DNA of 43,076 bases from Merismopedia glauca CCAP 1448/3 (GTDB taxonomy: Bacteria; Cyanobacteriota; Cyanobacteriia; Cyanobacteriales; CCAP-1448): assembly GCF_003003775.1 (NCBI RefSeq), contig NZ_PVWJ01000033.1, positions 1-43,076 on the forward strand, given 5' to 3'. Shown piece by piece: positions 3,465-16,283 of the stretch; position 1 is the stretch's first letter; every line of letters starts with the position of its first letter. The notes beneath the pieces are model-generated. The model saw nothing but the letters and a program-made list of their open reading frames with translations. It did no database searches and was not told where the DNA came from. A program made the translations under genes and the position numbers.

Positions 3465-3854
3465 ATGTCAGAAACTGCCGTTCAAGTAATAATTACTTTA
3501 TCCGATCCTCAGTTAAAAGATGAGGAAATGCAAGAAGCCATCCAAAATCTGCAATTGGAAGCTAAAGAAGTTGATGGAGTTGAGGAAGCTGAATTAATTA
3601 GCCTAGAACAAGCACCACCAAATTCTAAAAGTTTAGGTGGTTTCTTACTCAATCAGTTTAAAGCTTTGGTTGAAATTAAAAAACTGCCAAATTTAATTAA
3701 AACATTAGGTAGTCGTTTGTTTGGCAATCAAATTATTAAAGTTAAAGCAGAGAAAAACGGTAACAAGCTAGAGATCGAAATTAGTAATCCTGAAGACTTA
3801 GCCAAGGTTATGCCTGAAATCAACAAATTTATCGATAATACCAAATCAATATAG
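3465..3854 (+). CDS. EACC1-like effector-associated constant component
   Basis: A 129-residue soluble protein. It has an N-terminal strand (VQVIITLSDP), an acidic helix (DEEMQEAIQNLQLEAKEVDGVEEAEL), a linker APPNSKSLG, a hydrophobic helical stretch (about 58-88), then IKVKAEKNGNKLEIEISNPEDL and a final helix. This layout fits the effector-associated constant component 1 (EACC1) family, known from predicted conflict systems beside caspase-like proteases and NTPases. The gene downstream is a caspase. The assignment rests on pattern recognition, not a search. The last codons (from AAT ACC AAA TCA ATA) and the TAG lie inside the left end of a MITE, so the natural C-terminus has probably been replaced. 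AT-rich, with no HIP1 site. Confidence 0.68.
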   Translation: MSETAVQVIITLSDPQLKDEEMQEAIQNLQLEAKEVDGVEEAELISLEQAPPNSKSLGGFLLNQFKALVEIKKLPNLIKTLGSRLFGNQIIKVKAEKNGNKLEIEISNPEDLAKVMPEINKFIDNTKSI

Positions 3855-4151
3855 ATCTGCTACATATTAACTTTCTGTAGGGGCGCAAAGCTTTGATAGG
3901 TGTCAATTTAAGGCTCAAATGGTTGCTGCATCGTCAATTTCAGCGACAACCGCCAGGGGTTAAAAACCCCTGTCTCATAGCTCAAGTCCACTTAAGTGGA
4001 CTAAAGCTACTCTGTAGTCCTCTTCAGAGGACTTTAGCTATCAGCCGTGAACTTGAGTTCACGGCGGGGTAAAGGTTTCACGTTAAGTTGATGCTAGTGA
4101 AAGCTTTGCGCCCCTACCCAATATTTGTAGCGTTTTCAAGGTGAATTGGTA
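3839..4151 (+). mobile_element. Palindromic MITE copy (a), split by a second insertion
   Basis: Without the 204-bp insert and one copy of its 9-bp duplication this is a 100-bp element, the same length as the intact copy at 5814-5913. It starts TACCAAATCA, has a GTAGGGGCGC/GCGCCCCTAC palindrome at its centre, and ends GGTGAATTGGTA. The termini are inverted repeats (TACCAAATCA and TACCAATTCA). It occupies nearly the whole gap between the EACC1 and caspase genes and overlaps the 3' end of the former. Confidence 0.85.
3896..4099. mobile_element. 204-bp hairpin-rich insert with 9-bp target duplication
   Basis: Lies exactly at the centre of the MITE palindrome and is flanked by direct copies of AAAGCTTTG (3887-3895 and 4100-4108) that occur once in uninterrupted copies. 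The ends are weak inverted repeats (TAGGTGTCAATTTAA against TAGCATCAACTTAA). Four hairpins lie inside: 3954-3972 (CAGGGGTT/AACCCCTG), 3985-4002 (AGTCCACTTAAGTGGACT), 4016-4033 (AGTCCTCT/AGAGGACT) and 4045-4064 (CCGTGAACT/AGTTCACGG). No coding capacity, so non-autonomous. Confidence 0.85.
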
Positions 4152-4168
4152 GAACTAGGGGGTTGTTG

Positions 4169-5593: not shown

Positions 5594-5813
5594 CCCTCTG
5601 CTCTCTTGCCCTCTTGCCCTTTGCCCTTCTTTCTCTTTGCCCTTTTGTTGTCGCCTCTGGCGACTCGAATTATCTTGACAAAATCTAACCTTATAGAATC
5701 CATTTGGTATCTATGCTATAACTCCGATGGGGATAGAGTTTCAGCCAACTAATGGTTTGAGATTAAAATGCTGTCTTGGTAAGGGCTTCATAAAAGATCT
5801 CAAATGGGTTCTA
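5594..5813. other. Intergenic, low-complexity then featureless
   Basis: 5594-5646 is a C/T-rich imperfect tandem repeat (GCCCTCTT/GCCCTTT units) directly after the caspase stop. A small hairpin, GTCGCC/GGCGAC, follows near 5650-5663. A short inverted pair, GAATCCATTTGGTAT near 5697 and CAAATGGGTTCTATACC near 5800, brackets the remainder. No gene seen. Confidence 0.5.
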
Positions 5814-5913
5814 TACCAAATCACTAAATACTTGCTACGTATGAATTCTCTGTAGGGGCGCAAAGCTTTGCGCCCCTACCCAAGATTTGTAGCATCTTCA
5901 AGGTGAATTGGTA
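5814..5913 (+). mobile_element. Palindromic MITE copy (b), intact 100 bp
   Basis: Reference copy of the family. Left end TACCAAATCAC, right end GGTGAATTGGTA, and a perfect 28-bp palindrome at 5852-5879 (GTAGGGGCGCAAAG joined to its complement). Other copies: 3839-4151 (split), 16128-16215, 31094-31193 (inverted), and a left-end fragment at 17277-17303. Confidence 0.85.
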
Positions 5914-5951
5914 TTAATAAGATTTATTGTGAAGCAGGTATCTTCCCATAG

Positions 5952-10222: not shown

Positions 10223-11016
10223 TATGAGTTAAATTGCAAAGGTTGAGCGATATCTGGTCAATAACTTTGGCTGCTTTCTCTTTCAGGAGATTCATTCGAT
10301 GATACAGAGATTACAAGTGTGTTCGTCAAGATTTACCCCCTAATTTTTCACTTCAAGCCTAGGGATTGACCAGGTAAAAGGATCGTAAATAAGAATACAT
10401 AACTCTAATTTTAGAGTCCAAACATCCTCTCCTGGAAATATAACTAGGTTTATATATTCAGCACTGATTGACTATATCCTCGGTCAATCGGTTTAAGCTT
10501 GAGGTACGATTGGCGATCGCCACTAGAGAGACTTACCAGATTGTCACTGTTTTTACCCACAATTAATTATCGCTCATCAGTAAATTTTTTTCCCAACTCC
10601 ATCCCAAACCCTACCCTGTAGAGAGACATAGGTATATTTAGTAGTCTTTGGTAACTGGTATCTCTCAAGCTATTAAGTAAAAAATACTCAGACAAAATCG
10701 TCACAATTCGCTAAACAGAGGATTGACACCCATAATCTTATAGTTGAGAGTAGTTACTGAATCACCGACATTTTCTTGAGGGTTAATCTGCTAAATCTAT
10801 GATTTTCGGGAAATCAATATAAATGTAAAAATTTTGTCAACATTTTCAAATTTAAGGATATATTTTTTATATAGCCAATTCCAGAGAAAAATTTGGTAGC
10901 CAAAGTTATAAGTTAGGAAGATTGAATGTTAATATATTAATTCTAAGTCCTATTACTGATTACTCAACATCCAAATTCACTCCTTGGCAAAAGGTACACA
11001 AGATTCTGGTAACGCA
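10223..11016. other. 794-bp divergent intergenic region
   Basis: Separates sdhB (minus) from the cyAbrB2 gene (plus). It is AT-rich, especially near 10845-10885, with one HIP1 site near 10512. No open frame of note, hairpin family or palindromic MITE was seen. It probably carries both promoters and a long leader for the regulator gene, but no convincing -35/-10 pair could be assigned. Confidence 0.4.
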
Positions 11017-11424
11017 ATGACTGAGACAGCCACCGCTCCTTTAACAGGAAGACAACTACTTCAAAAAGTAAAAGAACTCTCCCATCTTCCCAGACGGGAA
11101 ACAGCAAAACGATGTGGTTATTACACGCTAACTAAAAATAGCCAGATGCGGGTAAATCTCACAGATTTTTATGATGCTGTATTAGCCGCTAAGGGTGTTC
11201 CTTTAGAACCAGAAGGGACAAAAGATGGTCGCGGGAGAGAACCAACTTATCGCGTTAGCGTCCATCAAAACGGTCAAATTGTGATTGGTGCAACCTATAC
11301 TCAAGCTATGGGATTAAAGCCAGGAGATCAATTTGAAATCAAACTTGGCTACAAGCACATTCACTTAATTCAAGTAGATGCAGATAAAGTTACTATTGCT
11401 GAAGATGAAGCTTCAGAAGAATAG
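11017..11424 (+). CDS. cyAbrB2-type AbrB-like transcriptional regulator
   Basis: Cyanobacterial AbrB-like DNA-binding regulator, clade B (Synechocystis Sll0822 type), which controls carbon and nitrogen balance genes. Recognised by MTETATAPLTGRQLLQKV, the helix LSHLPRRETAKRCGYY, and the C-terminal AbrB-like part EPTYRVSVHQNGQIVIGATY followed by GLKPGDQFEIKLGYKHIHL. A TTG at 10984 would add 11 residues, but it has no ribosome binding site and family members begin at the MTETATAPL methionine, so 11017 is chosen (135 residues). The gene for a CPBP protease starts 21 bases downstream and may be co-transcribed. Confidence 0.92.
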   Translation: MTETATAPLTGRQLLQKVKELSHLPRRETAKRCGYYTLTKNSQMRVNLTDFYDAVLAAKGVPLEPEGTKDGRGREPTYRVSVHQNGQIVIGATYTQAMGLKPGDQFEIKLGYKHIHLIQVDADKVTIAEDEASEE

Positions 11425-11445: not shown

Positions 11446-12366
11446 ATGAGTTGGTTTAAACAAATAAAACAGCAATGGCTGGGGTTAATAGTCGCAACTC
11501 CAGCTTTGGTGAAAGTTTTAGGCTTCTTTTCGATCTGGGTAGTTTGTTGGTTGCCGATCGCTATTCCTTTAGCTCATTGGTTGAGTTGGCATCCACTCCA
11601 ACCCCTACAAACTTCTCAAAAGTTATATTTGATTACTTCTTTGTATCTGATTGCACCTGTCATCATTTCAGGTGCAATCAGATATAGTCAAAAATTTTGG
11701 TCAAGTTACGGCGTGAGCTTGACCAATTTCACCAATATCCTAATTTCCTTGGTAATTGGGATCGCTTTAGCATTAGGTGGATTAGCGATCGCATTTTTGC
11801 TAGAAAATGCCCTCGGTTGGGTAGATTGGGAGGCAGAATCTTGGCTAAAACTTGTAGATATCAGTATTCCCATTCTACTTTTAGCTCTCTTTATTGGCGC
11901 TTGTGAAGAATTAATTTTTCGGGGATTTATCCAAACCGAATTGCAAGAAGATTATTCTCCGCTAATCGCTACAGTCATTACTAGTTCAATTTTTGCAGTC
12001 TCTCACTTAGTTTGGGAATGGGACAAGACTTTACCAGAAGTTCCAGGTTTGTGGTTACTAGGAGTAGTTCTCACCCAAGCGCGCTGGGTGAATGGAGGTA
12101 ATTTGAGTTTAGCCTGGGGACTCCATGCTGGTTGGGTTTGGGGTTTAACTTGTTTAGATACGGCTCAGATTTTGGTTTATACAGGTAAAGGTTCCGAGTG
12201 GTTTACAGGTTGGGGGGGAAATCCTTTAGCTGGAGGTAGCGGGATTTTCTGTTTATTATTGACTGCGGTGGCGATTCAACTGTTGCCTTTTCCAGATCCT
12301 TTACCATCTATGCCTCAAGTTATGACAATGGTAAGGGGATTGACAAAAGATCGGGAAGTTGGTTAA
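11446..12366 (+). CDS. CPBP family intramembrane glutamic endopeptidase
   Basis: Membrane protease of the CPBP (CAAX protease and bacteriocin-processing, Abi) family, 306 residues with about eight hydrophobic segments. The catalytic motif EELIFRGF has Glu154, Glu155 and Arg159. Supporting histidines are His187 in AVSHLVWEWD and His227 in AWGLHAGWVWG. Substrates in cyanobacteria are unknown. It begins 21 bases after the cyAbrB2 stop, suggesting an operon. Codons for residues 67-80 form a perfect 16-bp inverted repeat. Confidence 0.92.
   Translation: MSWFKQIKQQWLGLIVATPALVKVLGFFSIWVVCWLPIAIPLAHWLSWHPLQPLQTSQKLYLITSLYLIAPVIISGAIRYSQKFWSSYGVSLTNFTNILISLVIGIALALGGLAIAFLLENALGWVDWEAESWLKLVDISIPILLLALFIGACEELIFRGFIQTELQEDYSPLIATVITSSIFAVSHLVWEWDKTLPEVPGLWLLGVVLTQARWVNGGNLSLAWGLHAGWVWGLTCLDTAQILVYTGKGSEWFTGWGGNPLAGGSGIFCLLLTAVAIQLLPFPDPLPSMPQVMTMVRGLTKDREVG
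11644..11684. repeat. Perfect 16-bp inverted repeat inside the CPBP gene
   Basis: The arms TATCTGATTGCACCTG (11644-11659) and CAGGTGCAATCAGATA (11669-11684) are exact complements around a 9-base loop. The repeat encodes YLIAPVIISGAIRY within a predicted membrane helix and does not disturb the frame. Confidence 0.9.
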
Positions 12367-15889: not shown

Positions 15890-16127
15890 CTGGCTTTAAC
15901 TAGAAATATTTCTCTATTAGTCTTGATTGGTATTTTTTCTAGCCCGATCAAGTGAATAAACATTGCATTTAAGTTATACCATTTTCGGCATTGTTGATTG
16001 TTGATTGTTGGTTGGGTTTTCTTCCAGCCTTATCTCTCACTCTTCCCACTTTTGCTGTCAACTTATTTCATAGCTTGATTCAGCAACGCCCCATTTTCAT
16101 GTTCTTGGGCTACAAATTGGGGTTTAT

Positions 16128-16215
16128 ACAGATCTGCTACATATTAACCTTCTGTAGGGGCGCAAAGCTTTGCGCCCCTACCCAACATTTGTAGCGTTTT
16201 CAAGGTGAATTGGTA
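16128..16215 (+). mobile_element. Palindromic MITE copy (c), left end diverged
   Basis: Shares AGATCTGCTACATATTAAC with the split copy at 3839-4151, has the perfect 28-bp palindrome at 16154-16181, and ends CAAGGTGAATTGGTA. The outermost left bases are not recognisable. Confidence 0.8.
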
Positions 16216-16216
16216 T

Positions 16217-16283
16217 TAGAGACGTTGCAATCAACGTCTCTACGTTTGGATCTGTAGCATGACTTTTGGGAATTGGTATTAGA
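16217..16283 (+). mobile_element. GACGTTG hairpin element joined to the MITE end
   Basis: TAGAGACGTTG-CAAT-CAACGTCTCTA (16217-16242) is followed by a spacer and GAATTGGTATTAGA at 16270-16283. The same 14 bases occur at 16207-16220, forming direct repeats around the element. The related copy at 21536-21592 also ends in the complement of GAATTGGTATTA. Confidence 0.7.

Follow-up and report, generated by a model that had tools for sequence, protein, structure and literature searches.

Quasi-palindrome mutation by template switching is established in Escherichia coli, where it has been followed with lacZ reporters and where a hotspot in thyA has been cited (PMC7202029). Template switching has also been reported in coding genes of Saccharomyces cerevisiae; an arm of 16 bp occurs in one of 68 candidate genes, a case that the study did not evaluate statistically (PMC8604942). 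A further study describes template switching as an origin of RNA hairpins (PMC8794818). In the coding DNA of prokaryotes, Ladoukakis and Eyre-Walker (2008, cited in PMC4060949) found a small excess of short inverted repeats of 6–9 bp, and PMC4060949 itself describes coding-region inverted repeats as mostly normally represented, with wide differences between genera. In the mitochondria of Nematomorpha, coding palindromes are numerous and reach 284 bp, and template switching has been proposed as their source (PMC6649704). Searches of the open-access literature gave no report on the palindrome described here, nor on comparable events in genes of cyanobacteria.

The palindrome lies in a membrane protease gene of the cyanobacterium Merismopedia glauca CCAP 1448/3. 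The window, which is the whole stretch of DNA that was analyzed, comprises 43,076 nucleotides, and the features of the locus are as follows.

11446–12366, + strand: CPBP / Rce1-like membrane protease gene (306 amino acids, PF02517), which contains the palindrome
11644–11659, + strand: left arm, TATCTGATTGCACCTG, codons Tyr67 to Pro71 plus the first base of Val72; presumed template arm
11660–11668, + strand: 9-nt loop between the arms, TCATCATTT
11669–11684, + strand: right arm, CAGGTGCAATCAGATA, codons Ser75 to Tyr80; presumed rewritten arm

This locus shares several traits with the described systems. As in E. coli, an imperfect repeat would have become perfect by copying between the arms during replication; the E. 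coli cases are laboratory mutations, whereas the present one is deduced from a comparison of species (PMC7202029). As in yeast, the arms appear to have been homogenised inside a gene and the amino acid changes are clustered, but the yeast events were placed on strain trees with ancestral reconstruction, and the relatives compared here are not close (PMC8604942). A perfect stem from one event would also parallel the RNA hairpins, although those are RNA genes and this is a bacterial protein gene (PMC8794818). A conversion of imperfect into perfect repeats via template switching, as proposed here, is also the explanation given for the excess of Ladoukakis and Eyre-Walker (2008, cited in PMC4060949), which concerns repeats of 6–9 bp and not 16 bp. 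Perfect inverted repeats within protein genes are likewise the Nematomorpha pattern, but there they are longer (to 284 bp), numerous, and located in a mitochondrial genome (PMC6649704).

The host gene scores 58 bits with the PF02517 profile, for which the cut-off is 22.4, and Glu154, Glu155, Arg159, His187, and His227 are invariant in a 33-row alignment. These residues fit Glu-Glu-x3-Arg and His, which we take to be the conserved motifs of CPBP / Rce1-like proteins. Its domain and motifs mark the gene as one for a protease of this type. In the AlphaFold2 model, based on a 33-row alignment (mean pLDDT 86.6), residues 67–80 form part of the second half of a helix spanning residues 56–81. According to the original prediction, the palindrome lies in frame in a CPBP protease gene and encodes part of a helix, and the profile match and the predicted helix bear this out. 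An AbrB-like regulator gene is located directly upstream of the protease gene (ORF 10984–11424; domain scan from 11017).

The coordinates, arm length, and pairing of the predicted 16-bp repeat with its 9-base loop are all exact: the 16 bases of each arm are complementary, and the arms are in frame and touch codons 67–80. This is the longest perfect stem of the window at loops of 0–60, and the runners-up have 14 bp. An order-3 Markov model of the window was used to simulate 40 windows; with loops of 3–60, the mean number of stems per window was 0.225 at 12 bp and 0.1 at 13 bp, and longer stems did not occur. Extrapolation from this model gives approximately 0.001–0.003 stems of 16 bp per window. 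In 300 rounds of synonymous shuffling of the protease gene, with the encoded protein held fixed, the longest stem anywhere in the gene did not exceed 12 bp. The expectation that such a palindrome is very unlikely to arise by chance is thus upheld by the 12-bp maximum of the shuffles and the 13-bp maximum of the Markov windows.

Orthologues were collected from two sources, namely a search of 100 genomes (98 with a match), from which the sequences of the best 30 matches were taken, one of them the query gene itself, and a scan of named genomes, from which the best 80 of 180 relatives were used. After six duplicates had been dropped, the alignment held 103 rows, many of them from Nostoc. These orthologues, drawn from best matches, are 44 to 54% identical to the protein studied here; the comparison genomes include none of the same genus and one other of the same family. 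The palindrome is absent from all 103 aligned orthologues, and the 16-bp stem is kept in none. Their longest perfect stem within the site at loops of 3–30 is 9 bp (in one of the 103), and the stem at the site is the longest of the gene, or tied for it, in 11. The alignment at the palindrome is gap-free, so that the protein shows neither an insertion nor another indel there. Whether the repeat was conserved or newly acquired had been posed as a question for orthologues, and these orthologues answer in favor of new acquisition. Orthologues with unrelated codons and no inverted repeat had further been put forward as an indication of coincidence. The repeat is indeed absent from all 103, yet this does not make it a coincidence: one arm is ordinary, the other has become its reverse complement, and relatives already have an imperfect repeat.

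A template switch is recognized by a perfect repeat that is imperfect in relatives and by changes that are clustered in one arm. At the aligned positions, the orthologues keep at most 12 of the 16 pairs that are complete in this gene (mean 8.5 in the 103 rows, 7.1 in 21 dereplicated rows). The left arm has a mean identity of 10.0 of 16 bases to the orthologues (best 14) and the right arm one of 5.25 (best 9), and the left arm is the nearer of the two in all 103 comparisons. The right arm also resembles the reverse complement of the relatives' left arms more than it resembles their right arms; this is the same evidence as the contrast in arm identity and not independent of it, because the arms are exact complements in this gene. 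At the protein level, Tyr67 and Pro71 of the left arm are found in all 103 orthologues, Leu68 in 94, and Ala70 in 93. In the right arm, Ser75 and Tyr80 each occur in none of the 103 and Arg79 in six; the orthologues have Trp at residue 75 in 96 cases and at residue 79 in 68. The bases at 11669, 11670, and 11684 of this arm are common to none of the orthologues. Residues 75–80 are the least orthologue-like of 255 six-residue windows, mainly owing to residue 75, and at the nucleotide level the right arm ranks 44th of 761 windows from the least conserved, which is low and not extreme. In these aligned sequences, the left arm is thus the ordinary one and the right arm the altered one. The left arm is not wholly of the common form, because Val72, the first base of which closes this arm, is found in none of the 103 orthologues; the CCTG bases at the junction of Pro71 and Val72 are common to two. 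Residues 61 and 84, which lie outside the arms, also depart strongly from the orthologues. In a gene tree of 54 rows, this gene is on a long branch of 1.14 changes per site and its placement is unresolved.

The relatives carry an imperfect inverted repeat at the same place. By the number of pairs that orthologues keep, this center comes first among the 1433 of the gene; once amino acids and codon use are allowed for, its rank is 4, 4, and 1 in sets of 21, 37, and 46 dereplicated rows, respectively. The orthologues average 8.5 pairs against 6.3 in synonymous shuffles of their own genes, and none of 300 rounds reached 8.5, a count that gives no probability since the rows are related. Stems of 7 to 9 bp with a 9-nt loop, as in this gene, occur in several orthologue lineages. 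In relatives, Ala-Pro-Leu ... Trp-Gly-Ala/Val is encoded by DNA of a GCNCCNC ... GGGGNGC-like form, and the imperfect repeat stems in part from the peptide Ala-Pro-Leu ... Trp-Gly. Since other centers of the gene reach similar corrected scores, the imperfect repeat supports the view that template switching had a substrate here and does not prove a function. On a wider reading, which we consider rather unlikely, the site would be a lasting hotspot of mutation in cyanobacteria: the constrained peptide would preserve the imperfect repeat and its 9-nt loop throughout this protease family, codon choice would add pairing beyond expectation, and template switching would homogenise the arms repeatedly, with this genome as the most complete outcome.

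The palindrome probably arose by quasi-palindrome correction, through a template switch during replication in which the left arm was copied into the right arm. The ancestral gene probably carried an imperfect inverted repeat at the site. The growing strand would have folded back on itself or switched over to the sister strand, and the polymerase would have taken the left arm as template before returning. This would have turned the right arm into an exact reverse complement of the left one, with replacement of the conserved Trp by Ser75 and gain of Arg79 and Tyr80. The reading frame would have been kept, together with the helix as predicted, and the change may have been tolerated, perhaps as a neutral one. 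This change in the right arm looks tolerated, because the palindrome residues sit in a predicted helix and the catalytic-type residues are intact. A single event may have sufficed; one event is not separable from several, because the branch is long and unresolved and the genomes compared include none of the same genus.

Among the alternatives, a functional hairpin would explain the pairing through selection, either for an mRNA pausing or stability element or for a binding site of DNA or protein. The RNA of 11634–11694 does fold very stably (-29 kcal/mol, z = -8.55, none of 200 shuffles as stable), and the relatives pair above their synonymous shuffles at this center (8.5 against 6.3). This reading is nevertheless improbable, as stems at the site in orthologues do not exceed 9 bp (in one of 103) and are the longest of the gene in only 11, other centers of the gene have similar corrected scores, and selection would have had to tolerate losing a Trp that 96 of 103 orthologues retain. 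No T-run adjoins the stem, after which the + strand reads TAGTCAAAAATTTT, and an intrinsic terminator was rejected on this ground; a terminator scan called none here, but it covered loops of 3–8 and the 9-nt loop is outside its range. A search of Rfam up to an E value of 1 gave no match above the curated score, and its only match, RF03532 over 11625–11709, scored 21.5 bits (E 0.38) where the gathering score is 100. A conserved regulatory RNA hairpin was rejected as well, with a long stem in none of the 103 orthologues, no adjacent T-run, and no Rfam match above the curated score. A promoter-like match on the minus strand (11691–11662) overlaps the palindrome; the region has three promoter-like matches against a mean of 5.3 in shuffles. 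Among the options of the original prediction were a hairpin that acts in pausing or attenuation and a binding site, and this part of it finds no backing in the T-run and Rfam results or in the unconserved long stem. Ordinary substitutions may instead have completed the imperfect palindrome by chance on the long branch of this gene. The amino acids here go far towards pairing, since synonymous shuffles already give 8 to 15 of 16 pairs at the site itself (mean 10.9, with 15 in two of 300 rounds), and relatives already have the imperfect repeat. Against this, all 16 pairs or a stem of 13 bp appeared in none of the 300 rounds, and the sampled coding stems of the genome form a separate group at 16–19 bp and not a smooth tail. 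Chance completion is therefore also improbable.

An assembly or library artefact, such as a fold-back chimaera, deserves mention for a draft genome of 254 contigs. Fold-back artefacts usually produce inverted duplications longer than this palindrome, and the gene stays open, aligns without an indel, and has a helix that is predicted to be intact, which makes an artefact very improbable. The least credible origin is an inserted mobile hairpin element. The window does contain dispersed hairpin repeats, but the gap-free protein alignment, with no insertion, contradicts such an element. In this genome, a search with the arms found only the two arms themselves at zero mismatches and nothing further at one mismatch; at two mismatches there were eight places, compared to four for a reversed control pattern. 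In viral contigs, the two arms did not recur as an exact pair with this spacing, and plasmids gave no match to the palindrome. A dispersed REP/MITE-like hairpin repeat or mobile element was rejected from the gap-free alignment and the lack of further copies with zero or one mismatch. The earlier idea of a palindrome captured in a gene survives insofar as one arm appears to have been copied locally; a copy from outside was not found in the genome itself, the viral contigs, or the plasmids.

Long coding stems were also surveyed in 2.02 Mb of the 5.2-Mb genome, with 1483 uncurated ORF calls of at least 360 nt (1.616 Mb). Stems of 9, 10, 11, 12, 13, and 14 bp numbered 289, 78, 20, 7, 1, and 1, respectively, compared to 256, 66, 18.5, 3, 1.25, and 0.25 in four rounds of synonymous shuffling, and are thus near or somewhat above the shuffles. 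Seven coding stems of 16 to 19 bp were found, including the palindrome, and none in the four rounds of shuffles. It therefore seems that the long perfect repeats of this genome come from a process of their own, and the palindrome is one case of several in the sampled ORFs. Five of the six other long stems lie in ORFs that are questionable, are of low complexity, or have no relatives. Three of the six are as follows.

L176:7802–8596 and L176:15289–15753, contig C28: perfect 16- and 17-bp coding stems in two ORFs
L187:6764–9697, contig C4, minus strand: perfect 19-bp coding stem with a 3-nt loop and the motif GCGATCGC, in a histidine-kinase-like gene

A search of 59 other genomes found nothing that matches the stem-bearing ORFs of C28, and for this reason they are possibly acquired DNA. 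The long stem of contig C8 starts 14 bases into the ORF as called, perhaps outside the true gene, and those of C9 and of the C4 ORF at 35 kb lie in protein that is of low complexity by eye. In the right arm of the histidine kinase stem, Arg stands against Gly in 13 of 15 close homologues and Ala in two; the left-arm residues are not well conserved either, and which arm changed is not settled. Across 138 loci from other genomes, with 398 kb of ORFs, stems of 9–14 bp numbered 85, 24, 6, 0, 1, and 1 against 63.5, 13.5, 4.5, 2, 0.5, and 0 in shuffles, and this small sample had no stems of at least 15 bp. The genome of the same family, G001, has one 15-bp stem in 400 kb (315 kb of ORFs, without a shuffle control). 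The Merismopedia genome has both sbcD and sbcC, genes for a hairpin nuclease, above curated cut-offs, and a missing palindrome nuclease was rejected as the cause of its long coding repeats.

The window also carries other repeats. A dispersed repeat of approximately 84 nt is found at 3838–4154, 5813–5916, and 16115–16218, and its copies at 5833 and 16135 form a perfect 14-bp hairpin (GTAGGGGCGCAAAG / CTTTGCGCCCCTAC). A second hairpin family (GTAGAGACGTAGCA / TGCTACGTCTCTAC, with variants) is found at 570, 8871, 20165, 21553, and 27401. Similar hairpins occur on contigs C2, C8, C10, and C23 of this genome, and G001 carries a related TGTAGAGACG hairpin.

The mechanism favored here, quasi-palindrome correction, is already known, and the example is unusually clear rather than new in kind. 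The survey hints that the long perfect coding repeats of this genome stand apart as a group, which could serve to find more such events. The palindrome offers a clear natural bacterial example in which probably one short event altered several neighboring amino acids, and such clustered changes could be misread by tests for positive selection.
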